This document shows positions 3,679 to 29,150 of a stretch of 38,251 nt of DNA, piece by piece. Under the pieces are notes generated by a model. That model made no database searches. It had not been told where the DNA came from and saw only the letters and a list, made by a program, of their open reading frames with translations. The stretch lies in NCBI GenBank assembly GCA_001773775.1, contig MEXR01000048.1:1-38251 (forward strand), given 5' to 3'. This stretch comes from Candidatus Amesbacteria bacterium RIFOXYB1_FULL_44_23. GTDB taxonomy: Bacteria; Patescibacteriota; Microgenomatia; CAZETR01; Amesbacteraceae. The translations under genes and the position numbers were made by a program. Within the stretch, counting starts at the first letter, position 1; each line of letters starts with the position of its first letter.

Positions 3679-3715
3679 ACAACCCCTAGATTCTACTAAA
3701 AAATATCAAAACAGT

Positions 3716-3799
3716 GAACTCACCGCTCCACATGTGGAACTCTTAATTGATGGTACACTCAAAATTTACGAGGAACTAACAATACCAGACTTAATTTAA
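3716..3799 (+). pseudogene. Gene-tail remnant, copy 1 of a three-copy family
   Basis: The plus-strand frame reads ELTAPHVELLIDGTLKIYEE and then a stop. Related fragments occur at 4373-4476 and 7112-7246, with the shared pattern ELt.pqVE.Ll...lktY..L. It has no start of its own and looks like the last 27 or so codons of a coding gene. The source family is not identified; the pattern is helix-turn-helix-like. Confidence 0.55.
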
Positions 3800-3826
3800 C
3801 AACCGCGATAAGATCGCGGTTGTTAA
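3796..3826 (-). terminator. Strong hairpin, terminator of the 4331-3828 gene
   Basis: A perfect 14-bp inverted repeat, TTAACAACCGCGAT and its complement, with a three-base loop. It begins two bases after the stop codon of the minus-strand gene. The T-tract is weak (AAATTAAG), so it may act mainly as a transcript-end stabiliser or a bidirectional terminator. Confidence 0.7.
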
Positions 3827-3827
3827 T

Positions 3828-4331
3828 TCACGATAACTCAATTCTTGGATGAAGAGTCTTAAGGTGCCGTAACAGTTTATTTATTGTATCGGTATCCCAA
3901 ATGTTAAGGGAAAGGTCAAGATATGTACTGTCGTTATAATAAAAGCTCAGATAACGAACACTTTGGAACCCACGCCAGGTCCTCACAGGAAATCCTGCAT
4001 GCCACGGAACTTGTCTGACGTGACTGACGATCCGTTTCAGATTTGGTAAGTCAACGTTCACAACGTCCCTTTTACCTACACGCCCAAGACTATAAAATGT
4101 CAATATTCCACTATCAACAACCGCCTTTGACTGCATCCAGCCGAATATATAGATTAGTGTCAGGTACACGATCAGACTTCCAGAAACTAGGGTTGCAACT
4201 AACAAAATAGGATTGGTTGAATTATCACCGCCGATTAACTGAAAAAATCCCAGACCGACCGGAAAAATAGAAAGCCAAGCGACCATTCCGCCAAGTAATT
4301 TAATTGAAAACTTAGGCTTAAATACAACCAC
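3828..4331 (-). CDS. Membrane protein, two TM helices plus PH-like domain (167 aa)
   Basis: Hypothetical. Two N-terminal hydrophobic helices are visible, at about residues 12-33 (LGGMVAWLSIFPVGLGFFQL) and 42-65 (LLVATLVSGSLIVYLTLIYIFG). They are followed by about 100 soluble residues of alternating beta character: VVDSGILTFYSLGRVGKRDV, then VDLPNLKRIV, then RYLSFYYNDSTYLDLSL. This layout (TM pair, then a small beta sandwich) resembles bacterial PH-domain membrane proteins (bPH2/YdbT-like); that is inference. The start is a GTG at 4331 with CATAAT six bases upstream, again without Shine-Dalgarno. A strong terminator follows the stop. Confidence 0.55.
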   Translation of the reverse strand: MVVFKPKFSIKLLGGMVAWLSIFPVGLGFFQLIGGDNSTNPILLVATLVSGSLIVYLTLIYIFGWMQSKAVVDSGILTFYSLGRVGKRDVVNVDLPNLKRIVSHVRQVPWHAGFPVRTWRGFQSVRYLSFYYNDSTYLDLSLNIWDTDTINKLLRHLKTLHPRIELS

Positions 4332-4337
4332 TGCTTA

Positions 4338-4343
4338 ATTATG
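4338..4343 (-). promoter_or_regulatory. -10 hexamer (leaderless type) before the GTG at 4331
   Basis: CATAAT on the minus strand, six bases before the GTG start codon. Confidence 0.4.
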
Positions 4344-4372
4344 AAACTCTAATGTATCTTTTCAAAAAAGGT

Positions 4373-4476
4373 GAGCTCGCAGGACTACAGGTGGAGCCCT
4401 GATCTCAGCTATCCTTACAACCTATTATAAACTCCGGGAACTCGGGTTTAAAGAAGATGATGAAAAAGTATTTTAA
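4373..4476 (+). pseudogene. Gene-tail remnant, copy 2, frameshifted
   Basis: Begins ELAGLQVE in one frame, then needs a one-base shift near 4400 to continue LISAILTTYYKLRELGF followed by acidic residues and a TAA at 4474. It is similar to 7112-7246, where the same pattern runs without a frameshift. The fragment lacks a start and is clearly decayed. Confidence 0.6.
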
Positions 4477-4574
4477 AATAACGGAACCATATCACACATT
4501 TCTTACATGATGACTTTCTGAATTTATATACAACATGAAAAAGGATTGAGACAGCATTTGATCTGGCGGTCAAA

Positions 4575-4593
4575 GTGCCTGCGGTGCAGGCAC
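4575..4593 (+). promoter_or_regulatory. 19-bp palindrome over the -35 region of the kinase gene
   Basis: GTGCCTGC, GGT, GCAGGCAC: an 8-bp perfect dyad whose centre lies about 17-20 bases before the TATAAT at 4604, exactly where a -35 element would sit. It could be an operator, or a terminator hairpin from upstream without a T-tract. Confidence 0.35.
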
Positions 4594-4603
4594 AAGGGGA
4601 CTG

Positions 4604-4609
4604 TATAAT
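4604..4609 (+). promoter_or_regulatory. -10 TATAAT (leaderless type) for the 4617 gene
   Basis: A consensus -10, seven bases before the ATG at 4617. No Shine-Dalgarno lies between them. Confidence 0.55.
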
Positions 4610-4616
4610 TTAGTAA

Positions 4617-5111
4617 ATGAAAATAGTTCTGTTGGGAATCACTGGATCCGGAAAATCGACAATTGCCCAAAAGTTAGCTGATCGCTTCGGCATAGATGTT
4701 GTTGAGGCAGACGACGAGGTCATTAGGTTAAATAATGACCTTTGGCCAAAGGATGAAAAAATAATAGATAAGTATTTTCAAGTCACAAGCGACAAAGTGT
4801 TTACCATGGACAACGTCCTATATGTCATTTCCTGGTTAAGTAAAAAAAGAATCAAACAATTTGCTAGCAATGGCTTCAAAATTATCGAGCTCCACGCAGA
4901 CATCAAAGAACTCCTAAAGAGAAAAATCCAACGCGATAATCCGACCAAAAATGAAATCAGCCGCTTCAAAGAAAATTCCAATGGCTACTATGAGGTTGTA
5001 TTCGATGATGAAATTAAGCCATTGATTAGCTTAAGTCTAGATACCACCACCATAAATCCGGAAGATGTTTTCAAAAAGATTACAAAAGCTCTAAATCAAA
5101 ATGGCCACTGA
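4617..5111 (+). CDS. P-loop nucleotide kinase (AAA_18/shikimate-kinase-like)
   Basis: A small cytoplasmic phosphotransferase of the P-loop kinase superfamily. A Walker A motif GITGSGKST occupies residues 7-15, right after the first beta strand (MKIVLLG). The following helix (IAQKLADRFG) and an acidic pair EADDE near residue 31 fit the substrate/metal region of adenylate-, shikimate- or cytidylate-type kinases. A helix with a lysine/arginine lid-like run (LLKRKIQRDNPTKNE) follows near residue 100. At 164 aa it is single-domain, and the substrate cannot be told from sequence. The next gene starts at 5101 inside its last codons, so the two are translationally coupled, probably as a small kinase operon. 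Confidence 0.75.
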   Translation: MKIVLLGITGSGKSTIAQKLADRFGIDVVEADDEVIRLNNDLWPKDEKIIDKYFQVTSDKVFTMDNVLYVISWLSKKRIKQFASNGFKIIELHADIKELLKRKIQRDNPTKNEISRFKENSNGYYEVVFDDEIKPLISLSLDTTTINPEDVFKKITKALNQNGH

Positions 5112-6027
5112 GACAAAATCAGTCGAAAGTATTCTTAGAATTGTGGACTTCGTTTCCCATCTTCCAGATTTTCGCGGCTCTGTCGTTGAAATTGTCGACG
5201 GCGGTGTTTCCACTGCGGTATATCGCCTTAAGCGTGATAACGAGGTGTTCTATTTGAGATTGGGTGACATTGGCGGCAATATGTCCTGTGAAGCGCTAGC
5301 CCATAAATTAATGCTGGAAAAAGGGGTATCGGTCCCAAAGGTGATTCAATTCGAAGACGCAAACCCGTTCTTAGGCAGGTCTTTTATGATTACCTCCGAA
5401 ATTCAGGGAGTAAGAACCGATAAAGACGTACATTCCTCAACTGGGATTATTGTCGAAGCGGGTAGGCAATTAGCCTTAATTAATTCCATATCAGTCGAGA
5501 GATTCGGTTGGATTGACAGAAGCGAGATGAATGTCAAAAAGCTATCTGGTACTTTTGGGACATGGGAAGAATTTGCTCTAGACTTAAATAATATTCATTC
5601 CCAATTGAGTAGTCTGGCAAAGACAAACGCGATTACACCTGATATGGTCAAAAAAGTGATAACCTACATCGAAGCCAATAGGGGTCTTATCTCCTGTCCT
5701 CAAGCGTTTCTCTCTCACGGGGATTTTGATGTTACTCACATTTTTTCTGTTAACGGCAAGTATAGCGGCATAATTGATTTCGGAGATATTAGATGTTGCA
5801 GTCCCTATCATGATTTAGCTCATTTTTATACATATAGTCGGAAACAATTTGACAATTTACTTAAAGGCTTCCTAGAGGTATCAAAACTGGAGGATCATCT
5901 GCCGGAGAAAATCAAATTCGAGGCTTTACTGTTTGGGATTGGCAAGCTCTGGTATACGATTGAACATTTTCCGGAAAAGTTCAACTCAAATCACCCGGCC
6001 ATGAGTCTCATTACTAATATAGTGTGA
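5101..6027 (+). CDS. Aminoglycoside-phosphotransferase (APH/choline kinase) family protein
   Basis: A protein-kinase-like fold phosphotransferase of about normal length (308 aa). The N-lobe shows the nucleotide strands (VVEIVDGGVSTAVYRL, EVFYLRLGD). The C-lobe carries the Brenner-type catalytic loop LSHGDFDVTHIF (about residues 203-214) and the metal-binding GIIDFGD (about residues 222-228), then the usual DLAHF helix. Substrates in the family range from aminoglycosides to homoserine, choline and fructosamine; nothing here identifies one, and antibiotic resistance should not be assumed. It overlaps the preceding P-loop kinase by 11 bases in a different frame, so the two are almost certainly co-translated. 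A hairpin (6051-6070) follows the stop. Confidence 0.85.
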   Translation: MATETKSVESILRIVDFVSHLPDFRGSVVEIVDGGVSTAVYRLKRDNEVFYLRLGDIGGNMSCEALAHKLMLEKGVSVPKVIQFEDANPFLGRSFMITSEIQGVRTDKDVHSSTGIIVEAGRQLALINSISVERFGWIDRSEMNVKKLSGTFGTWEEFALDLNNIHSQLSSLAKTNAITPDMVKKVITYIEANRGLISCPQAFLSHGDFDVTHIFSVNGKYSGIIDFGDIRCCSPYHDLAHFYTYSRKQFDNLLKGFLEVSKLEDHLPEKIKFEALLFGIGKLWYTIEHFPEKFNSNHPAMSLITNIV

Positions 6028-6050
6028 GTTAAAAAAGCCCTTCGCATCGC

Positions 6051-6070
6051 TCCGTGCGTAGGCGCACGGA
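6051..6070 (+). terminator. Hairpin after the APH-like gene
   Basis: TCCGTGCG, four-base loop, CGCACGGA: an 8-bp perfect stem 24 bases after the stop. There is no clear T-tract, so termination efficiency is uncertain. Confidence 0.45.
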
Positions 6071-6105
6071 CGATATCCCAGAAATCTGAGCGAAACTTCT
6101 TTGAA

Positions 6106-6231
6106 GTGACCCCAAGGGTCGTAGTTCAGAACCAGATAATCCCCGAACTCATTCAATATTATAAACTGTTTGCCTCTCAGATCTCTAGCTTCGACTTCCA
6201 GCCTCAATATAACTACGCTTAGGGATTAGAA
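6106..6231 (+). repeat. 126-bp dispersed repeat, copy 2 (gene-tail remnant)
   Basis: A gap-free partner of 2398-2523. The plus-strand frame reads VVVQNQIIPELIQYYKLF, then SFDFQPQYNYA and a TAG stop. The last 19 bases match the region that forms the end of the DHH gene in copy 1. It has no start codon context and sits between the APH-like gene and the promoter of the phosphorylase gene. Confidence 0.75.
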
Positions 6232-6243
6232 CCAAGATAATAG

Positions 6244-6249
6244 TATAAT
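6244..6249 (+). promoter_or_regulatory. -10 TATAAT (leaderless type) for the phosphorylase gene
   Basis: A consensus -10, six bases before the ATG at 6256, without Shine-Dalgarno. It lies 13 bases after the end of repeat copy 2. Confidence 0.55.
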
Positions 6250-6255
6250 TAATCA

Positions 6256-7029
6256 ATGTATAAACAGCTTAAGGTCGAGGATTTTCGAAAAATACTTAAG
6301 CTTCCGGAAGATTATCGAGTAGACGGGGTTCTGATTCATGGAGCAATGCGAAAGAAAAAGCATAAACAGGAGCTTGAGGAAACTATTGCTAAACTTGGAT
6401 ATAAAGCTAACTACAGCGTGATATATGAAAGTGGATTTTATGAAAACATTACCGTAATTGAAATCGACGGTAAAAGAATTTGGTTTGATTCCTCATATGG
6501 TGGTGCCTATTTATGTGAGGTATTACATATAGCTAGTCAATTAGGATCGAAGAAAAATATTTTGGTGGGATCATGTGGTGGATTAGCACCTTTGGGGCTG
6601 GCAGGTGATATTATTATTCCTTCTTCCAGTTATGGTAACGAAAGCACTACTAGAATGTATCAACCAGATAATGAGGAATTTACGTATTTTCCGGATACAC
6701 AATTAAACGAGAATATAAAAGCAAAGGTCAATCCGAAGTTTAAAATAATTGAAGGTAAACTATTGACTTGTCAGGGAGCTTTGCAGGAATCGTGGGAAGA
6801 TATTGAAAGGTGGTCCAATGAAGGCTACGTAGGCGTAGAAATGGAAAGCTCCACCATGTTTGCCGTATCTAGTTTTTTTAATATCCCCAGCACTGCCATT
6901 TTATTTATTGCAGATAATCTGATTAAAAAAGAAACGCTTTTCGGAGAGAATTTTGAACAATTAATGGAAAAATTTAAAGAATCAAAATTCGAAACCTTTA
7001 AAGTTGCTTTTGAAGAATTGCTCACCTAG
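6256..7029 (+). CDS. Nucleoside phosphorylase family protein (PNP/UDP type)
   Basis: A cytoplasmic enzyme of the purine/uridine phosphorylase family (PNP_UDP_1), which splits nucleosides with phosphate for base and ribose-phosphate salvage. Seen: the phosphate/ribose-binding glycine segment ILVGSCGGL near residues 100-108, the GDIIIPSS strand, and the family's late motif VEMESSTMFAVSS near residues 193-205, whose Met-Glu pair binds ribose. The family acid/asparagine near the C-terminus appears as IADN. Length (257 aa) is normal. Base preference cannot be read safely. Start at ATG 6256 is supported by the -10 six bases upstream. It appears to be a single-gene transcript. Confidence 0.85.
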   Translation: MYKQLKVEDFRKILKLPEDYRVDGVLIHGAMRKKKHKQELEETIAKLGYKANYSVIYESGFYENITVIEIDGKRIWFDSSYGGAYLCEVLHIASQLGSKKNILVGSCGGLAPLGLAGDIIIPSSSYGNESTTRMYQPDNEEFTYFPDTQLNENIKAKVNPKFKIIEGKLLTCQGALQESWEDIERWSNEGYVGVEMESSTMFAVSSFFNIPSTAILFIADNLIKKETLFGENFEQLMEKFKESKFETFKVAFEELLT

Positions 7030-7111
7030 CCTGACTATAAGTGAGTGGCACAAATAAGGGTATATAAGATCCTATCGATTGTGTTTCCTTTTAGGAAAAT
7101 ACCGAATTTGT

Positions 7112-7246
7112 GAGCTCACTGTACCACAGGTGGAACACCTACTCGAGAGCATTTTCAAAACCTACGAACGATTGAAAGAGCTTGGTTTTACCTACTATAA
7201 CGGCAAAATTGTAGTAATTGACGTTGAGGAGGTGGCTCATGAATAG
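7112..7246 (+). pseudogene. Gene-tail remnant, copy 3 (longest), overlapping the radical-SAM start
   Basis: An open frame without a start reads ELTVPQVEHLLESIFKTYER, LKELGF, then NGKIVVIDVEEVAHE and a TAG at 7244. It is homologous to 3716-3799 and 4373-4476. Its last codons supply the Shine-Dalgarno (GGAGG) and overlap the ATG of the downstream radical-SAM gene at 7239. The pattern looks like a winged-helix C-terminus, but I cannot name the parent gene. Confidence 0.6.
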
Positions 7247-8384
7247 TGATAATTCCTCACTTCAAATAGAAAAACGATGTGAATATGGTTATCATCCTAG
7301 AGGTAATACAATAAATAATATGTTAAAGGAATTAGCCAGTTATTCAGAATCAATTAAAGGTGCAATATTTCCAAGTAATGAACTAAGGTTTGTAAACTGG
7401 TATCTTCAGCATGGATGTGACTTAGATTGTTCCTATTGTAAAGTCCCGAAGCAAAAAATTGGGATTATGTCTCAAGGGGATCGAGATAGCGTTTTATTAA
7501 AAATTCGAAGTTTAAGTTCAAAACAGCCAATTATCAGTCTTTTGGGTGGAGAACTTACACTTCGACCAGATTTTTTAGTTGAAGCAGTTACTGATGCTGC
7601 AAACGTTGGATTTCTTGTTAATGTTGTCAGCAATGGTTGGGGATTAACACCTGATTTAATAAAAAAATTGAGTGCAGCTGGATTGCATTACCTAGGAATA
7701 TCCGTTGATAGTGATGAAAATTCTCTCAAACAAAATTTAGAAAAAGCATTATCACTTCATCGAACCACTCGAGAGATAGGTATTTTACCAGTAATAAATA
7801 CTGTTATCACAAAAGAAACAGATCCGGATACATTTATAAATTTTGCCACTAGGGTGATTAATACTGGTTGTTTTATTAGCCCACTGGCATGTTCCCCCGA
7901 AGTCCCTGGGGGTGTATTTTCCAGTGCATCAATCGACTCTGTGCCTACTCAAGAACAATTAAAAGAAATTGTCCCTTGGCTGGCAATGAAAAAACTCACA
8001 ACAGGTCTTGTTACTTCCAATCTAGGATACCTCTGGACACTTTATAATACCGGCGTATCGGGAGATAACGTTAAATTATGGCATTGCTCGCCACATTTTA
8101 GGTCAAAAAGTGAAACGAACGGAAGAGGGTCATTAACAATAGATTCAGACGGTCATATTGGTCCTTGCCAGGAATTTCCAAGAACTATTAATTTGTTAAA
8201 TTTGCCGCAAAGTCAGCTCTCACTTCAATTGTTAGATACCGCATTTGCACCAGTTACACAAAAATGTCCTGGATGTCTTTACAACTGTTACGTAATGGAA
8301 GAAGGAATTGGTGGTCCTCAACTTCTTGGAGAAATACCCACATTAATCCAAATGGCTAATATTAAGTCCAATAATCACAAATAA
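7239..8384 (+). CDS. Radical SAM protein with SPASM-like C-terminal cysteines
   Basis: A radical S-adenosylmethionine enzyme. The 4Fe-4S motif CDLDCSYC (CxxxCxxC) lies near residue 64, followed by the SAM-binding GGE segment LLGGELTLRPDF and the NVVSNGWG strand. The C-terminal 90 residues contain further cysteines (LWHCSPHF, GPCQEF, CPGCLYNC), which suggest a SPASM or twitch domain holding an auxiliary cluster, as in peptide-modifying and sulfatase-maturing enzymes. The ATG at 7239 is chosen over a TTG at 7218 because an AGGAGG lies seven bases before it, one of few good Shine-Dalgarno sites in the window. No precursor peptide or partner gene is recognised nearby, so the substrate is unknown. 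Confidence 0.85.
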   Translation: MNSDNSSLQIEKRCEYGYHPRGNTINNMLKELASYSESIKGAIFPSNELRFVNWYLQHGCDLDCSYCKVPKQKIGIMSQGDRDSVLLKIRSLSSKQPIISLLGGELTLRPDFLVEAVTDAANVGFLVNVVSNGWGLTPDLIKKLSAAGLHYLGISVDSDENSLKQNLEKALSLHRTTREIGILPVINTVITKETDPDTFINFATRVINTGCFISPLACSPEVPGGVFSSASIDSVPTQEQLKEIVPWLAMKKLTTGLVTSNLGYLWTLYNTGVSGDNVKLWHCSPHFRSKSETNGRGSLTIDSDGHIGPCQEFPRTINLLNLPQSQLSLQLLDTAFAPVTQKCPGCLYNCYVMEEGIGGPQLLGEIPTLIQMANIKSNNHK

Positions 8385-14262: not shown

Positions 14263-14667
14263 ATGAAAAATAAATCGGATAAGTACAAACTTCCCACAGG
14301 TGACGAATACGAAGGGCTTTTCAACCCAGAAGATTTAATGACCGTGTATTTCGTTAGGAATGGCGTCGGCTATAGGTGGGGTATTCCTTATAAAATTTTC
14401 GCTTCTAGTCGCTTCCAGGATATGAAGGAACCGTACGCAGATAAGGATTTAGTGGCGCTAGGCGGTGTTTTATTCGACATTTTAGTTATCGACAAGTATG
14501 CAATCGACTTCAAGCAAAAGACAGGCGTACAGAAGTTAAGCGTGGTCGTGAGGTCGTCCGAAACCGAGGATAAACAATTACTTCATAAACTGACGGGTAA
14601 GTTTCGAGAAAAAAGCGAAGTACTGAATAGAGATAGCATACCAGGAACTAATAAAGACCATGAATAG
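14263..14667 (+). CDS. Hypothetical protein preceding the recombinase (134 aa)
   Basis: Not recognised. Mixed alpha/beta, no membrane segment. It begins MKNKSDKYKLPTGDEYEGLF and contains a hydrophobic stretch LVALGGVLFDILVIDKYAID, then a basic/acidic C-terminus. Its last codons overlap the recombinase start (ATG at 14660) by eight bases, so the two are translationally coupled and it probably belongs to the integration module. It may be an accessory factor for the recombinase; the evidence is context only. The promoter TATAAT at 14234-14239 lies 23 bases before its ATG. Confidence 0.6.
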   Translation: MKNKSDKYKLPTGDEYEGLFNPEDLMTVYFVRNGVGYRWGIPYKIFASSRFQDMKEPYADKDLVALGGVLFDILVIDKYAIDFKQKTGVQKLSVVVRSSETEDKQLLHKLTGKFREKSEVLNRDSIPGTNKDHE

Positions 14668-16426
14668 TAAGCAAACAGTACCACTTCGGGCGGCAGTTTA
14701 CCTTCGGGTATCGACTGACGACCAGATAGAAAAATACGGCATTCCGCTACAAAAAGCGGCTGTAGACGCTGTAATTAACTCTAAAGGAAAGCTGGACGAC
14801 GGCTCGCCCGCTATGGTGCTTGCAGGAGAGCAATATATTTATAAGGACGAGGGTGTGAGCGGCGCTGACCCACTAGACGAACGACCAGCCTTTCTACGCA
14901 TGAAGGAAGATATAGAAAATGCGCCAGAGGGCGAAAAACCGTTCGATATTGTAGCCGTTTATCGAATTGACAGGTTCGCACGTAAGCTAAAAATTTTACT
15001 AGAGGTAATCGAATACTACGAAGCCCATGACATTCAGTTCATATCTGCCAATGAAAGTATCGACACTTCCACCCCGTTTGGTAAGGCTATGCTAGGTATT
15101 ATCGGCGTAATTGCCGAGCTGGAAAGAGAAACTACAAAAGCCAGAACCCAAGCTGGCAAAGTGCAAGCCATAGAACGAGGGGTCTATATGGGCGCACAAG
15201 CGCCTTATGGCTACCTAAAAGATAAGGACAAGCACCTACAAGTTTTTGCACCAGAGTCTAAAGTTGTCGAAGAAATCTTCGAATTGTTCGTATCACAGAA
15301 AAAGAATACCCAACAAATAGCAGACTACCTAGCTAGTAAGAAAATCCTTACCCCACTTCCTTCGGCAGTTCATTATGGAAAAAGACGAAAGGGACGCACA
15401 AAAGTTAACGACGAATACTTCTGGCGGGATTCTACCGTAAGAGGCATTGTTAAGGATGAAATATATCTGGGAATTTACTACTACAATAAGCACGAAGGAA
15501 AAAAACGCTTAGATAAATCACTCTGGAAAAAATCACCGACAGAACATGATTCCATTATCGACTATGGCACCTTTAGCATGGCCCAACAGCGTATTAAAGA
15601 AGATGTGGCCTTACGTAATAGCGCTAAAGCGGTCGAAAACCACTTATACCTACTATCTGGCCTCTTAAAATGCCACGCATGTTACGACCCATATTCTGGT
15701 CGCGACCCACTAAACTGGTCTGGTACAAGTAAGGTTATAAAGAAAAACGGCAAACGTGCCTACTACTATCATTGTGGGGCTAAAAACTCTAAGAAATACT
15801 CGACTGTGTGTAAAGCAATTCCATTCCCAGCCGATGAAATAGAAGCATTCGTTACCCAGTTTATTAAAGACTTGCTAAGCGACCCAGAGAACGTCTACAG
15901 GCATATTAACACGTTGCAATCTACGAAAATGGATAAAAGGAAGCTCCTAAAAAGACAGGTAGATATAACAAAAATGTTAAATCGAATACCTGGTAGCCGC
16001 CAGAATATAAAGCGCATGTACGGCAAAGGAGACATTACCGACGCAGACTACGACGAAAGAATGGCTAATGTTAAAAAGCAGGAAGCTGATTTAAGGAAAG
16101 ATTTATTAGTAATACAGGGACAAATCGGCGAAGATAAAATCTCGGAAATTTATGCTAGTACCTTTAAGCTGTTCGCGAAAAAATACAAGCCTTTCCTAGA
16201 CGGCCTAATGACCGACAGGCAGGAAGTATCCGACCTAATTCACCTTATTGTCGACAGAGTTAACGTTTATACGCGAAAAGCAACGAAAAAAGACAAAATC
16301 GCAGGCCGAAAAAAGGAAGACCAGGTAATCCCATACCAGGTGAGGATAGATTTACGCTTGCCGCAAGACATTATGCAACGCCTAGCACGGCAAGGTAAGT
16401 TCGAAGTCAGAAACGATAACTTGTGA
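14660..16426 (+). CDS. Large serine recombinase (site-specific integrase/transposase)
   Basis: A 588-aa serine integrase. The catalytic resolvase domain opens RAAVYLRVSTDDQ with the nucleophile Ser18, followed by VAVYRIDRFAR and the helix-E region GIIGVIAELERETTKAR. A Recombinase domain follows (GAQAPYGYLKD; FWRDSTVRGIVKDEIYLG). Next is a zinc ribbon near residues 336-395 with cysteines in LKCHACYDP and YYYHCGAKN plus VCKAIPF, and then a coiled-coil region (KRKLLKRQVDITKMLN). This full set is typical of elements that integrate by recombining two short att sites. Its TGA stop lies within the 3' end of the tRNA-Glu gene on the other strand. It is coupled to the 134-aa gene and divergent from the small HTH protein. 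Confidence 0.92.
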   Translation: MNSKQTVPLRAAVYLRVSTDDQIEKYGIPLQKAAVDAVINSKGKLDDGSPAMVLAGEQYIYKDEGVSGADPLDERPAFLRMKEDIENAPEGEKPFDIVAVYRIDRFARKLKILLEVIEYYEAHDIQFISANESIDTSTPFGKAMLGIIGVIAELERETTKARTQAGKVQAIERGVYMGAQAPYGYLKDKDKHLQVFAPESKVVEEIFELFVSQKKNTQQIADYLASKKILTPLPSAVHYGKRRKGRTKVNDEYFWRDSTVRGIVKDEIYLGIYYYNKHEGKKRLDKSLWKKSPTEHDSIIDYGTFSMAQQRIKEDVALRNSAKAVENHLYLLSGLLKCHACYDPYSGRDPLNWSGTSKVIKKNGKRAYYYHCGAKNSKKYSTVCKAIPFPADEIEAFVTQFIKDLLSDPENVYRHINTLQSTKMDKRKLLKRQVDITKMLNRIPGSRQNIKRMYGKGDITDADYDERMANVKKQEADLRKDLLVIQGQIGEDKISEIYASTFKLFAKKYKPFLDGLMTDRQEVSDLIHLIVDRVNVYTRKATKKDKIAGRKKEDQVIPYQVRIDLRLPQDIMQRLARQGKFEVRNDNL

Positions 16427-16496
16427 CTCCACGGGGACTCGAACCCCGGTTACCAGGATGAGAACCTGGTGTCCTAGACCGCTAGACGATGGAGCC
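16424..16496 (-). tRNA. tRNA-Glu (anticodon CTC)
   Basis: Read on the minus strand from 16496: acceptor GGCTCCA, paired with TGGAGTC with one G-U. The anticodon stem ACCAGG/CCTGGT encloses the loop TTCTCAT, giving anticodon CTC (Glu). The T-arm CCGGGG TTCGAGT CCCCG is clear. The discriminator is A at 16424, and CCA is not encoded. The recombinase stop codon overlaps its 3' end. A TAAAAT hexamer (16512-16507) lies ten bases before its 5' end. Confidence 0.93.
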
Positions 16497-25517: not shown

Positions 25518-27350
25518 ATGGCCAAAAAACCTTCCTCAGCTTCTGCCTCCGCCTCCTCATTTGCCCAGATGTTTTTCATAATTAAATTTGCCTTAGCTTT
25601 TTTATGGAAAACCGACAAAAAAGCATTTCTTCTGGTGGTATTTTTAAATTCTGTCGCCAGCTTTATCATCATTCCCAATCTTTACCTGGATAAGATTTTT
25701 TTAGACACTTTAATCGGCAATATCGGCAGTCCGGACCCTTTTCGCATTCTGAATTTAATATTGTTAATAGTCGCCGCCCGTTTTGGCTTGGCCGCGGTCA
25801 GAACGTTATCAACCAGGGTCGCCGGCTACTTTAGCCGCATCATTTTTTGGAAAAATAATCAGCGCCTGGAAATTCTTATTGGCAAAAAATATGCCAGTAT
25901 CAGCGTTCCGGTCCTGGAGTCTCCGGAATTCAAAAACCGCTACAACCGTATCGAAAGGGAAAGCTTAAACCGGTTTCACCGTGTCACTGAAAACGTAGTC
26001 AGGATTCCTCAACATATCTCAGCCATTGTTTCTTCTTTATCGTTTTTTGTCATCACTCAGCCGTTTGTCATCGTTTTCTCTCTGGCTTCTCTTCTGCCAT
26101 CAGTGATCGTCGATCGCATTTTTATTAAAAAAGACTACCAGTTAGACACCCAGATAGCCGTATTACATCGTACCCGCGGATTTTATTACTCCCAGCTGGC
26201 CAGAAACCGTTCATACATGGAAATACGGCTTTTAGGAATAGCAGATTACTTAGCCGGTCACATCATCCGGATCTGGAATGACATTATTGCCAAACGCCTG
26301 GCCATGTTCAGGTCCTGGCGCACCTGGAGTTTTCTGGCCGGACTGGTTGATGATATTACCTCTTATTCATTTGATGCCCTGTTTGCGTATCAGGCCATTA
26401 TTCAGCAAATCACCATCGGTACCGCCCAGGCTTATATTCGGGCCATTTCCAGTTTCAAAAGAAGCGTTTCCGATTTAACCGCTGCCACCATGGAGTTGTA
26501 CGAAAATTATTTCTATCTCAATGACTTAGTTTGGTTTTTAAACCTGGATGAACCGTACTTTAACAGTAATGGCCATCTGGTTACAGCTCCGCTTAACCAG
26601 GGGTTTGAATTCAAAAACGTTTGGTTTAAATATCCCGAAACCGATAACTGGATTCTTAAGGGCATTTCTTTCAAAGTCGACTTTAATGAAAACATAGCCA
26701 TTGTCGGCAAAAACGGCGCCGGAAAAACAACTTTGGTTAAACTTTTGTGCGGCTTTTATTCTCCCACCAAAGGCCAGGTTTTAGTTGGCGGCCGGCCGGT
26801 GTCCGGGTTAAACAAACCCTCGTATTGGAAAAAGCTGTCCGTGTTATTCCAGGATTTTGATCAGTTCGGGCTGTCAGCAACCGAGCGCATCGGCATTTCT
26901 GATTTAAACCGGATGTCCGATCCGGATCAGATTATCCACTTTAGTAAATTGGTGGGTATTCATGATTGGATTAAAGGTTTGCCCAAAGGTTACGAAAATC
27001 CGCTTTCCCGGGATTTTGAACACGGGATTATGCCTTCAACCGGCCAGGCCCAAAGAGTCGGCATCGCCAGGACCTTATTCAGAAAAGATGCCGATTTGTT
27101 AATTCTGGATGAACCCACCAGCAACGTCGACCCTGAATCAGAAGAACAAATCTTTGAAGAGATCATCAAACTGGGATTAAAGAAAAACCTGATTTTCATT
27201 TCCCATCGTTTCAGCACCGTTCGAAAAGCCGATCGTATTTTACTGGTTGAAGACGGTCAAATAACCGAAAACGGATCGCATGAAAAATTGATGGCCGAAA
27301 ACGGCACCTATGCCCGGCTTTTCTCTCTCCAGGCCAAAAGTTATCAGTAG
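25518..27350 (+). CDS. ABC exporter half-transporter (degenerate signature motif)
   Basis: 610 aa: an N-terminal six-helix transmembrane domain (to about residue 340) fused to a nucleotide-binding domain. Walker A is GKNGAGKTTLVKL and Walker B LLILDEPTSNVDP with the catalytic Glu; the H-loop is FISHRF. The ABC signature, normally LSGGQ, is PSTGQ (in MPSTGQAQRVGIARTL), so one composite ATP site of the dimer may be impaired. An Ala/Ser-rich leader (KKPSSASASASSFAQ) precedes the first helix. It probably forms a heterodimer with the next gene, ten bases downstream; substrate unknown. The last 52 coding bases are identical to those of the neighbour. Confidence 0.9.
   Translation: MAKKPSSASASASSFAQMFFIIKFALAFLWKTDKKAFLLVVFLNSVASFIIIPNLYLDKIFLDTLIGNIGSPDPFRILNLILLIVAARFGLAAVRTLSTRVAGYFSRIIFWKNNQRLEILIGKKYASISVPVLESPEFKNRYNRIERESLNRFHRVTENVVRIPQHISAIVSSLSFFVITQPFVIVFSLASLLPSVIVDRIFIKKDYQLDTQIAVLHRTRGFYYSQLARNRSYMEIRLLGIADYLAGHIIRIWNDIIAKRLAMFRSWRTWSFLAGLVDDITSYSFDALFAYQAIIQQITIGTAQAYIRAISSFKRSVSDLTAATMELYENYFYLNDLVWFLNLDEPYFNSNGHLVTAPLNQGFEFKNVWFKYPETDNWILKGISFKVDFNENIAIVGKNGAGKTTLVKLLCGFYSPTKGQVLVGGRPVSGLNKPSYWKKLSVLFQDFDQFGLSATERIGISDLNRMSDPDQIIHFSKLVGIHDWIKGLPKGYENPLSRDFEHGIMPSTGQAQRVGIARTLFRKDADLLILDEPTSNVDPESEEQIFEEIIKLGLKKNLIFISHRFSTVRKADRILLVEDGQITENGSHEKLMAENGTYARLFSLQAKSYQ
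27298..27349 (+). repeat. 52-bp direct repeat at the ABC gene ends, copy 1
   Basis: Identical to 29098-29149, exactly 1800 bases away. It encodes the last residues NGTYARLFSLQAKSYQ in both genes, while the rest of the genes are clearly diverged. Suggests recent local gene conversion. Confidence 0.85.
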
Positions 27351-27359
27351 TCAAAATGT

Positions 27360-29150
27360 ATGTCCGAAAAAATTAAGTTGGTAAAAATCATTAAATACGT
27401 GTTTTCCTCGCTTTGGCGAATAGATAAGTGGCGCACAATTTTGTATTTGGTTGTAACAAATCTTCGCAGCCTGTTTTCCATTCCGGAATTATATTTAAAC
27501 AAATTATTCATCGAGACCTTATTGGCTGCCATCGCAGCTGGATCTTTTACTTCGTACTCTCAACCGCTTCTCCTGTTAGTTATTGTCAGATTTCTTGTGC
27601 AGCTGTCAGAATCCATCCTTAGTAGAATTGGCTATTTTCTTGGTTACCAGTTGCGACTTAAGTACCAGGCATCAACAGACGATTTTATTAGCGACAAACT
27701 TTATCAGCTGGAGATCCCGGTAATCGAATCTGCCGAGTTTACCACTCGTTTCTCCAGACTCAGATCAAACCGATATCGAGGTTTTAACTTGGCCAACTCC
27801 GTTATTTCAATTCCCAGCGAAATCGCCAGTATTTTTTCCTCTTTGGCCTTAATTTACATTCTCAAGCCTTGGATGGTTCTAATTTCACTGCTTTTTTCCC
27901 TGCCCAAACTGTTTATCAGACGCAAGCTGGCACATAACAGGTTTAAAAATGATGAAATCATTCAGCAAAAATATTCTACTCGAAATGAGGTGGAAAATTT
28001 ACTAAATCACCAGCAGGAAGAAGTCCGCACACTCGGAGCTTTTTCGTTCTTGAAAGAAAAGCGCAGACAGATACGCGATGAAATAAACAACTTAAATTTG
28101 TCATCAGACAAACGCATGTATTTACTCGGCATTTTTCAGGAATTCTTAGATCAGCTTTTTTCCCGCGGCTTCGAAATCTATTTGGTTATTAATGCAATAT
28201 TAGGCAGAATCACCTTTGGCGATTTTCAGGCAGCCAGTAGCGCTTTAAATCGCTTAACGGTAAGTTTGGGTAACGTGTTAAACGTCATAGGTGATAGCAT
28301 GGAGAATCAAATTTATCTTTCTGATTTGATGTGGTTTATCGATCATCCGGTAGAGCCCTTTTTCAGTCACAAAAACTCAGTCAATTTGTCTCCGAAAAAT
28401 TCGCTCATAAAATTTAATCACGTCAATTTCCATTACCCGGGCCACCAGAAATTCTCTTTAAAAAATCTTAATTTTGAGATAAAGCCCGCAGAAAAAATAG
28501 CTTTGGTTGGATTAAACGGTGCCGGAAAGTCAACCATTGTTAAACTCCTTTGCGGCTTTTATAAACCTACCAGTGGGCAGGTTTCATTCGGCAGTCACAA
28601 TATTTTTTCCTATCCCCCTGAAGTATACCGTTCTCATTTGGCGGTTCTTTATCAGAATTTCTGCTACTATTCTGTATCAGCCAAAGAAAGTATTGGCTTA
28701 GGTAACATTCTCAAACTCGAAGACTTTCAGGCTATTCAATCAGTCGCTAAATTGACCAAGATTGACTCCTGGATCAAAAGTTTGCCCCAACAGTATCAAA
28801 CTCCATTGGCCACCCATTATCCCAACGGAGTCCAGCCGTCTGGTGGCCAAAGACAGCGTATTGCTCTGGCTAGGATTATGCTCAAATCAGCCGAGGTTTA
28901 TATTTTAGACGAACCCACCAGTCAGGTCGACGCATTGGCTGAAGAAGAAATATTCTCTGAAGTGCTTGACCTTTTAAAAGACAAAACGGTTATTTTTATT
29001 TCCCACCGTTTTTGCACAGTTAGACGAGCCGATCGCATTCTTTTGATCGAAGACGGTCAAATCACCGAAAACGAATCTCATGAGAAATTGATGGCCCAAA
29101 ACGGCACCTATGCCCGGCTTTTCTCTCTCCAGGCCAAAAGTTATCAGTAA
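27360..29150 (+). CDS. ABC exporter half-transporter (canonical NBD)
   Basis: 596 aa. An exporter half-subunit with transmembrane domain then NBD. Walker A is GLNGAGKSTIVKL, the signature PSGGQRQRIALARI, Walker B VYILDEPTSQVDA, and the H-loop FISHRF. It is paralogous to the preceding gene but well diverged except at the extreme C-terminus. With the degenerate PSTGQ in its partner, the pair fits a heterodimeric exporter with one hydrolysis-competent site. Start at ATG 27360, ten bases after the partner. The following MBL hydrolase begins three bases after its stop, so the three genes are one unit. Confidence 0.9.
   Translation: MSEKIKLVKIIKYVFSSLWRIDKWRTILYLVVTNLRSLFSIPELYLNKLFIETLLAAIAAGSFTSYSQPLLLLVIVRFLVQLSESILSRIGYFLGYQLRLKYQASTDDFISDKLYQLEIPVIESAEFTTRFSRLRSNRYRGFNLANSVISIPSEIASIFSSLALIYILKPWMVLISLLFSLPKLFIRRKLAHNRFKNDEIIQQKYSTRNEVENLLNHQQEEVRTLGAFSFLKEKRRQIRDEINNLNLSSDKRMYLLGIFQEFLDQLFSRGFEIYLVINAILGRITFGDFQAASSALNRLTVSLGNVLNVIGDSMENQIYLSDLMWFIDHPVEPFFSHKNSVNLSPKNSLIKFNHVNFHYPGHQKFSLKNLNFEIKPAEKIALVGLNGAGKSTIVKLLCGFYKPTSGQVSFGSHNIFSYPPEVYRSHLAVLYQNFCYYSVSAKESIGLGNILKLEDFQAIQSVAKLTKIDSWIKSLPQQYQTPLATHYPNGVQPSGGQRQRIALARIMLKSAEVYILDEPTSQVDALAEEEIFSEVLDLLKDKTVIFISHRFCTVRRADRILLIEDGQITENESHEKLMAQNGTYARLFSLQAKSYQ
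29098..29149 (+). repeat. 52-bp direct repeat at the ABC gene ends, copy 2
   Basis: Identical partner of 27298-27349. Upstream of it the two genes show scattered differences, downstream only the stop codon differs (TAG versus TAA). Confidence 0.85.

Follow-up and report, generated by a model that had tools for sequence, protein, structure and literature searches.

Orphan coding tails in a Candidatus Amesbacteria contig as probable C-termini of a serine integrase split by integration at tRNA genes

The SSV-type ('suicidal') integrases, such as those of SSV1, pTN3 and pT26-2, are tyrosine recombinases that have been described as exclusively archaeal (PMC8371274). Among bacteria, the serine recombinase gene dsiB of the Dehalococcoides ssrA islands was suggested by its authors to be fully functional only in the circular form, or next to an island that bears the 3' gene fragment (PMC3146451). 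Regarding the sites themselves, attP and attB of serine integrases differ in the position of the zinc-ribbon motif, by 5 bp (PMC3783163). In Patescibacteria, a survey of type IV secretion systems (T4SS) argues that most of them are not conjugative, and its text contains neither 'recombinase' nor 'tRNA' (PMC12102498).

The DNA analysed here (the window) is a stretch of 38,251 nucleotides from Candidatus Amesbacteria bacterium RIFOXYB1_FULL_44_23 (contig MEXR01000048.1), carrying three related plus-strand fragments, W1, W2 and W3. Very probably, they are the last ~45 codons of an integrase gene, each with an attP half-site, stranded by the integration of ICE-like elements at tRNA genes.

The three tail copies and their two parts

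The features of the three copies, with their roles as proposed here, are the following:

3714-3799, plus strand: W1, the putative and most decayed left-end relic, with an attP half-site followed by a truncated integrase tail (profile without the window copies, E 6.6e-6)
3714-3740, plus strand: predicted half-site of W1 (GTGAAC..GGAAC, spacing 22; DNA profile and spacing count)
4370-4476, plus strand: W2, a putative left-end relic, the tail with one further frameshift (profile without the window copies, E 3.4e-13; spacing 22)
4371-4397, plus strand: predicted half-site of W2 (spacing 22)
7108-7246, plus strand: W3, the putative and best kept left-end relic, with a complete integrase tail (profile without the window copies, E 1.1e-36)
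7110-7136, plus strand: predicted half-site of W3 (spacing 22)
7244-7246, plus strand: natural stop TAG of W3, overlapping the nuclease start (start codon at 7239)
7239-7275, plus strand: putative remnant of a PLD-like nuclease gene, its first ~12 codons, now the N-terminus of the radical-SAM ORF 7218-8384 (left-end alignment, profile match to 7272, radical SAM Pfam hit)

The original prediction described these fragments as related copies of one protein end, and they are indeed related both as DNA and as codons. A DNA profile built from 27 relatives, leaving out W1-W3, recovered all three in the 38 kb searched, which confirms the similarity (E 7e-6, 3e-13 and 1e-36, from W1 to W3). The matches extend over 3714-3779, 4370-4476 and 7108-7263, and besides them no further match was found in the window, even at E 10.

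Two parts can be told apart in the fragment: its first 27 bp (GTGAGC..GGAAC) are conserved at the DNA level and show no codon pattern, while the remainder is codon-patterned. Past column 33 the variation by codon position is 0.15/0.58/0.37 in the relatives' copies beside a nuclease gene and 0.25/0.57/0.40 in their solo copies, indicating that the tail is or was protein-coding, in solo copies too. The conserved GTGAGCTC start that had been proposed is then a DNA site rather than a start codon, GTGAGC being the predicted attachment half-site, and the lack of a gene start in the fragments had been correctly noticed. There are two classes of tail, differing by one base between the two parts, so that the reading frame of the first part is not the same in both. 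A programmed frameshift in a leader peptide was considered because of these classes, but the two integrase frames correspond to these classes and account for them. Weak matches to aminoacyl-tRNA synthetases were put down to chance helix similarity, and a structured RNA or T-box leader was set aside, as the Rfam search was empty and a codon pattern was seen instead.

When the tail was looked for in relatives, as had been proposed, 76 of the 374 sampled Microgenomatia genomes matched at E <= 0.01, some of them weakly. The homology starts sharply at the first part, as seen in two copies from genome G258 that are 93% identical and have unrelated DNA upstream. Solitary tails (loci L043, L047, L049, L063, L064, L070, L071, L072 and L074) often adjoin Fic and toxin-antitoxin-like ORFs, which suggests that such cargo outlives the element.

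The element in relatives and its rejoined integrase

In complete copies from relatives, the tail stop overlaps the start of a gene for a single-HKD PLD-like nuclease (PF13091, E 2.2e-10). The gene order from there is fixed: the nuclease is followed on its 3' side by a small protein of ~72 residues and an HTH gene in the opposed direction, then at a variable distance, as seen on long contigs, by an M23 peptidase, a VirB4-type ATPase, PrgI, T4SS pilins, Replic_Relax (PF13814), a coupling protein and, at the far right end, a large serine recombinase whose gene runs into the 3' end of a tRNA gene. The distance between the recombinase end and the junction expected from the 3' end of the opposite-strand tRNA is at most 5 nt in 24 of the 30 cases, and at most 30 nt in 26 of them, the targets being tRNA-Lys, Glu, Gln, Ser and Arg. 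An integrase, a VirB4-type ATPase, a coupling protein and mating-pair genes, part of the gene set that marks an ICE, are thus found inside defined ends, with the Replic_Relax protein as a possible relaxase. The tail and the recombinase are read from this arrangement as marking both ends of a conjugation-type (ICE-like) element that is integrated in genomes of Microgenomatia (Patescibacteria). The named relatives with a linked nuclease are mostly Microgenomates (Levybacteria, Collierbacteria, Daviesbacteria, Roizmanbacteria and Shapirobacteria).

A ~1-kb transposon carrying the PLD nuclease was dropped as an explanation once the conserved M23 gene, and later the full element, came to light on its right; likewise, a viral or plasmid origin was rejected, as searches of IMG/VR and PLSDB did not find the nuclease. 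In genome G222 (L061, 5381-7916), an additional serine recombinase gene has been inserted into the element, separating its nuclease gene from its small gene.

The right and left ends have a short core in common and, when they are joined there, as they would be in a circle, one open frame results, made of the integrase body, the core and the tail and closing at the start of the nuclease gene. A script joined 15 of 18 pairs in frame. For the remaining pairs its core was absent or wrong; G327 and G018 fit at an evident core, and G273 fits at a core homologous to that of other tRNA-Gln elements, so that 17 of the 18 genomes are in frame at a clear core and the 18th at a homologous one, the two ends of some pairs being on different contigs of one genome. 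Four integrases could be read at full length, with 562-580 residues when integrated, ending in codons from the tRNA antisense strand, and 598-605 when joined; in a fifth, from G207, the start is cut by the contig end. The rejoined G145 integrase, of 600 residues, matches the Resolvase N-terminal (PF00239, E 2.5e-7) and Recombinase (PF07508, E 2.4e-8) domains; it has no Pfam zinc-ribbon match, and its sequence shows a stretch rich in cysteine and histidine, of the kind expected. W3 aligns to its residues 553-600.

The rejoined frame indicates that attP is inside the integrase gene and that integration strands the last ~45 codons at the opposite end; judged from these sequences, the tail is the C-terminus of a large serine integrase whose target is the tRNA 3' end. 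The original prediction of one parent gene for all fragments agrees with this result, as the joined ends give a single in-frame integrase that ends in the tail. It had placed the parent, possibly as a core gene, elsewhere in the genome, and this part needs revision, because the candidate parent is the inserted element's own integrase gene, split by the recombination site within it. Fragments of a host core gene that insertions had copied or displaced, decaying since, would also have a codon pattern in solo copies and could occupy several gaps within one region, but this origin is extremely unlikely, given that the tail complements the integrase of the same element, in frame, in all usable pairs and that no other parent was found in the 374 genomes.

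The expected parent was therefore recovered in relatives by joining element ends (~600 residues), but not as an intact contiguous gene, since body and tail were found apart across the 374 genomes and neither these nor two further family searches contained an intact integrase-plus-tail gene. Contiguous candidates in G041, G105, G327, G286, G316 and G371 were inspected and none was an intact parent. The absence of a contiguous gene is expected if the integrated copies are split; no free circle was seen among the data. Recombinases outside the close family may not possess the tail.

The same joining bears on a regulatory role, in which the fragment would be a translated leader peptide or a structured RNA controlling the PLD nuclease operon wherever it lands. 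The overlap between the tail stop and the nuclease start and the DNA conservation of the first 27 bp would suit such a leader, but in several copies the conserved frame lacks a start codon, Rfam gave no match and the tail frame is that of the integrase, making this role very unlikely; a coupling of nuclease and integrase in the circle is, besides, compatible with the split integrase proposed here.

The attachment site imitates its target. In 15 of 15 pairs, 22 nt separate the GAAC motif from the core within the left half-site, as compared to 17 nt within the tRNA, so that the motif lies 5 bp farther out in the putative attP than in attB, in agreement with the shift described for serine integrases. 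In addition, the half-site matches its own tRNA at 7.0 of the first 10 bases, compared to 4.9 for other tRNAs, a value as high being reached in none of 20000 permutations. GTGAGC..GGAAC is thus predicted to be an attP half-site mimicking the 3' end of its target tRNA.

Integron-like cassette arrays, with the fragment as an attC-like site between cassettes, would fit the single orientation of all copies within a locus, seen in each of the nine multi-copy loci fetched, and toxin-antitoxin-like and Fic genes do occur between copies. Such arrays are nevertheless exceedingly improbable, as the site has the form of a half-site for a serine integrase, imitating the end of a tRNA at the attP spacing, the repeat is mostly coding and the linked enzyme is a serine recombinase (PF00239, PF07508) instead of a tyrosine integron integrase acting on attC. 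The common orientation is explained by tandem accretion at the tRNA.

The tRNA-Glu locus and the proposed mechanism

The other end of the locus is marked by two features:

14660-16426, plus strand: large serine recombinase of another lineage, the putative right end of the most recent insertion (PF00239, PF07508, PF13408)
16423-16496, minus strand: tRNA-Glu(ctc), the putative integration target, whose 3' end (GTGACTCC..CGAAC, spacing 17) faces the relics (ARAGORN, spacing count)

The recombinase stops against the 3' end of tRNA-Glu, its TGA stop being supplied by the GTGA core of the tRNA. W1-W3 all possess the GTGA core and a spacing of 22, like the Glu and Lys elements, and all face tRNA-Glu; they are most likely the fossils of at least three integrations at this gene. 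They could come from tRNA-Lys instead, because the GTGA core is present in both tRNAs. Each copy would thus be the left end of an ICE-like element with its own half-site, which favours the repeated insertions of the original prediction. In G003, of the same family, the same tRNA-Glu adjoins the same genes (greA first) and the relics are absent. Separately, G003 (L204, G003:C11) has a 19-bp copy of the tRNA-Glu 3' end (GTGACGCTACCCGGACTCG) as a direct repeat ~80 bp beyond the 3' end of that tRNA, which may be a scar left by another integration event.

The copies also differ in preservation, as W3, the nearest to tRNA-Glu, is the best kept and retains the nuclease start, and W1, the farthest, is the worst. 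This gradient fits successive insertions beside the tRNA, although one locus cannot prove the order, and preservation in other multi-copy arrays is not always graded. No integrase body matching W1-W3 is left in the window and, of the element's secretion and nuclease genes, only the ~12 nuclease codons after W3 can be recognised in it; the left host junction lies beyond the contig. As these codons of a lost PLD nuclease gene appear to open the radical-SAM ORF 7218-8384, its annotated N-terminus is probably chimeric.

Two further repeats were observed in the window. A second coding tail (VVILRLEVEARDLRGKQFIILNEFGDYL...) occurs twice between genes on the minus strand (2398-2526 and 6106-6234), its copies being 87% identical as DNA. 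No parent was found for it, the only match in 59 relatives being a weak one with a stop (G058, E 2e-4); it may be the tail of another element, and the parallel once drawn with 'secA tails' lacks support. Moreover, the adjacent genes 25518-27350 and 27360-29150 have 86% identical 167-bp ends (27183-27349 and 28983-29149) and match the same region in relatives, pointing to a tandem gene duplication.

As proposed here, the integrase ORF of the excised circle would cross attP into the tail and stop on the start codon of the PLD-family nuclease gene. The integrase would recombine attP with the 3' end of a tRNA gene, leaving on the right end the integrase body, with closing codons from the tRNA antisense strand, and on the left end the half-site, the tail and the nuclease gene, behind unrelated host DNA. 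Later decay would remove the body of the element while the left end stays. In the window, there would have been at least three rounds, most likely at tRNA-Glu, each newer element inserting itself between the tRNA and what was left of the earlier ones. Integration would also alter the integrase C-terminus and detach the nuclease gene from the operon of the integrase; both changes would be undone by excision. What the sequences themselves show is the tail's identity, the frame of the rejoined gene, the spacing of the half-sites and, in relatives, the tRNA that is targeted; we infer excision, the order of events in the window, a change of integrase activity on integration, and conjugation. For the idea of a bacterial 'suicidal' serine integrase, in which the tRNA-antisense C-terminus and the cutting off of the nuclease let integration itself switch the enzymes between a free and a settled state, the chances appear even.

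Comparison with known systems

No earlier report of a split serine integrase of this kind was found in the open-access literature searched, which includes few subscription journals. If the reading is correct, a mechanism described as exclusively archaeal and tyrosine-based would now extend to serine integrases of bacteria. For several tRNA targets, the attP and attB half-sites can be read straight from the sequence, which supplies tRNA-targeting serine integrases with predicted sites. The orphan tail would also be a marker of past integrations in Patescibacteria, a barely studied group, and the finding of their type IV secretion genes inside elements with an integrase and tRNA sites bears on whether these secretion systems are conjugative.

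As in the SSV-type integrases, the recombination site lies in the integrase gene, and integration would result in two gene parts flanking the element; in contrast, the enzyme here is a bacterial serine recombinase that would lose only its last ~45 residues, whereas the part lost by SSV-type integrases carries the catalytic domain (PMC8371274). With dsiB it shares the serine recombinase family and a 3' end overlapping the attachment site in an RNA gene. In dsiB the stop is unclear and the alignments diverge there (PMC3146451), while here the fragment, frame, half-site and target can be identified; the targets are tRNA genes instead of ssrA, and the elements carry T4SS genes. The 25-bp half-sites and the 5-bp shift of the zinc-ribbon motif between attP and attB resemble those of the Listeria A118-like integrase, in a study that deals with neither the imitation of a tRNA end nor a site within the integrase gene (PMC3783163). 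Lastly, VirB4, PrgI and VirB2-type genes are those found in the same bacteria by the Patescibacteria T4SS survey (PMC12102498), but in the elements described here they are located between an integrase and tRNA attachment sites.
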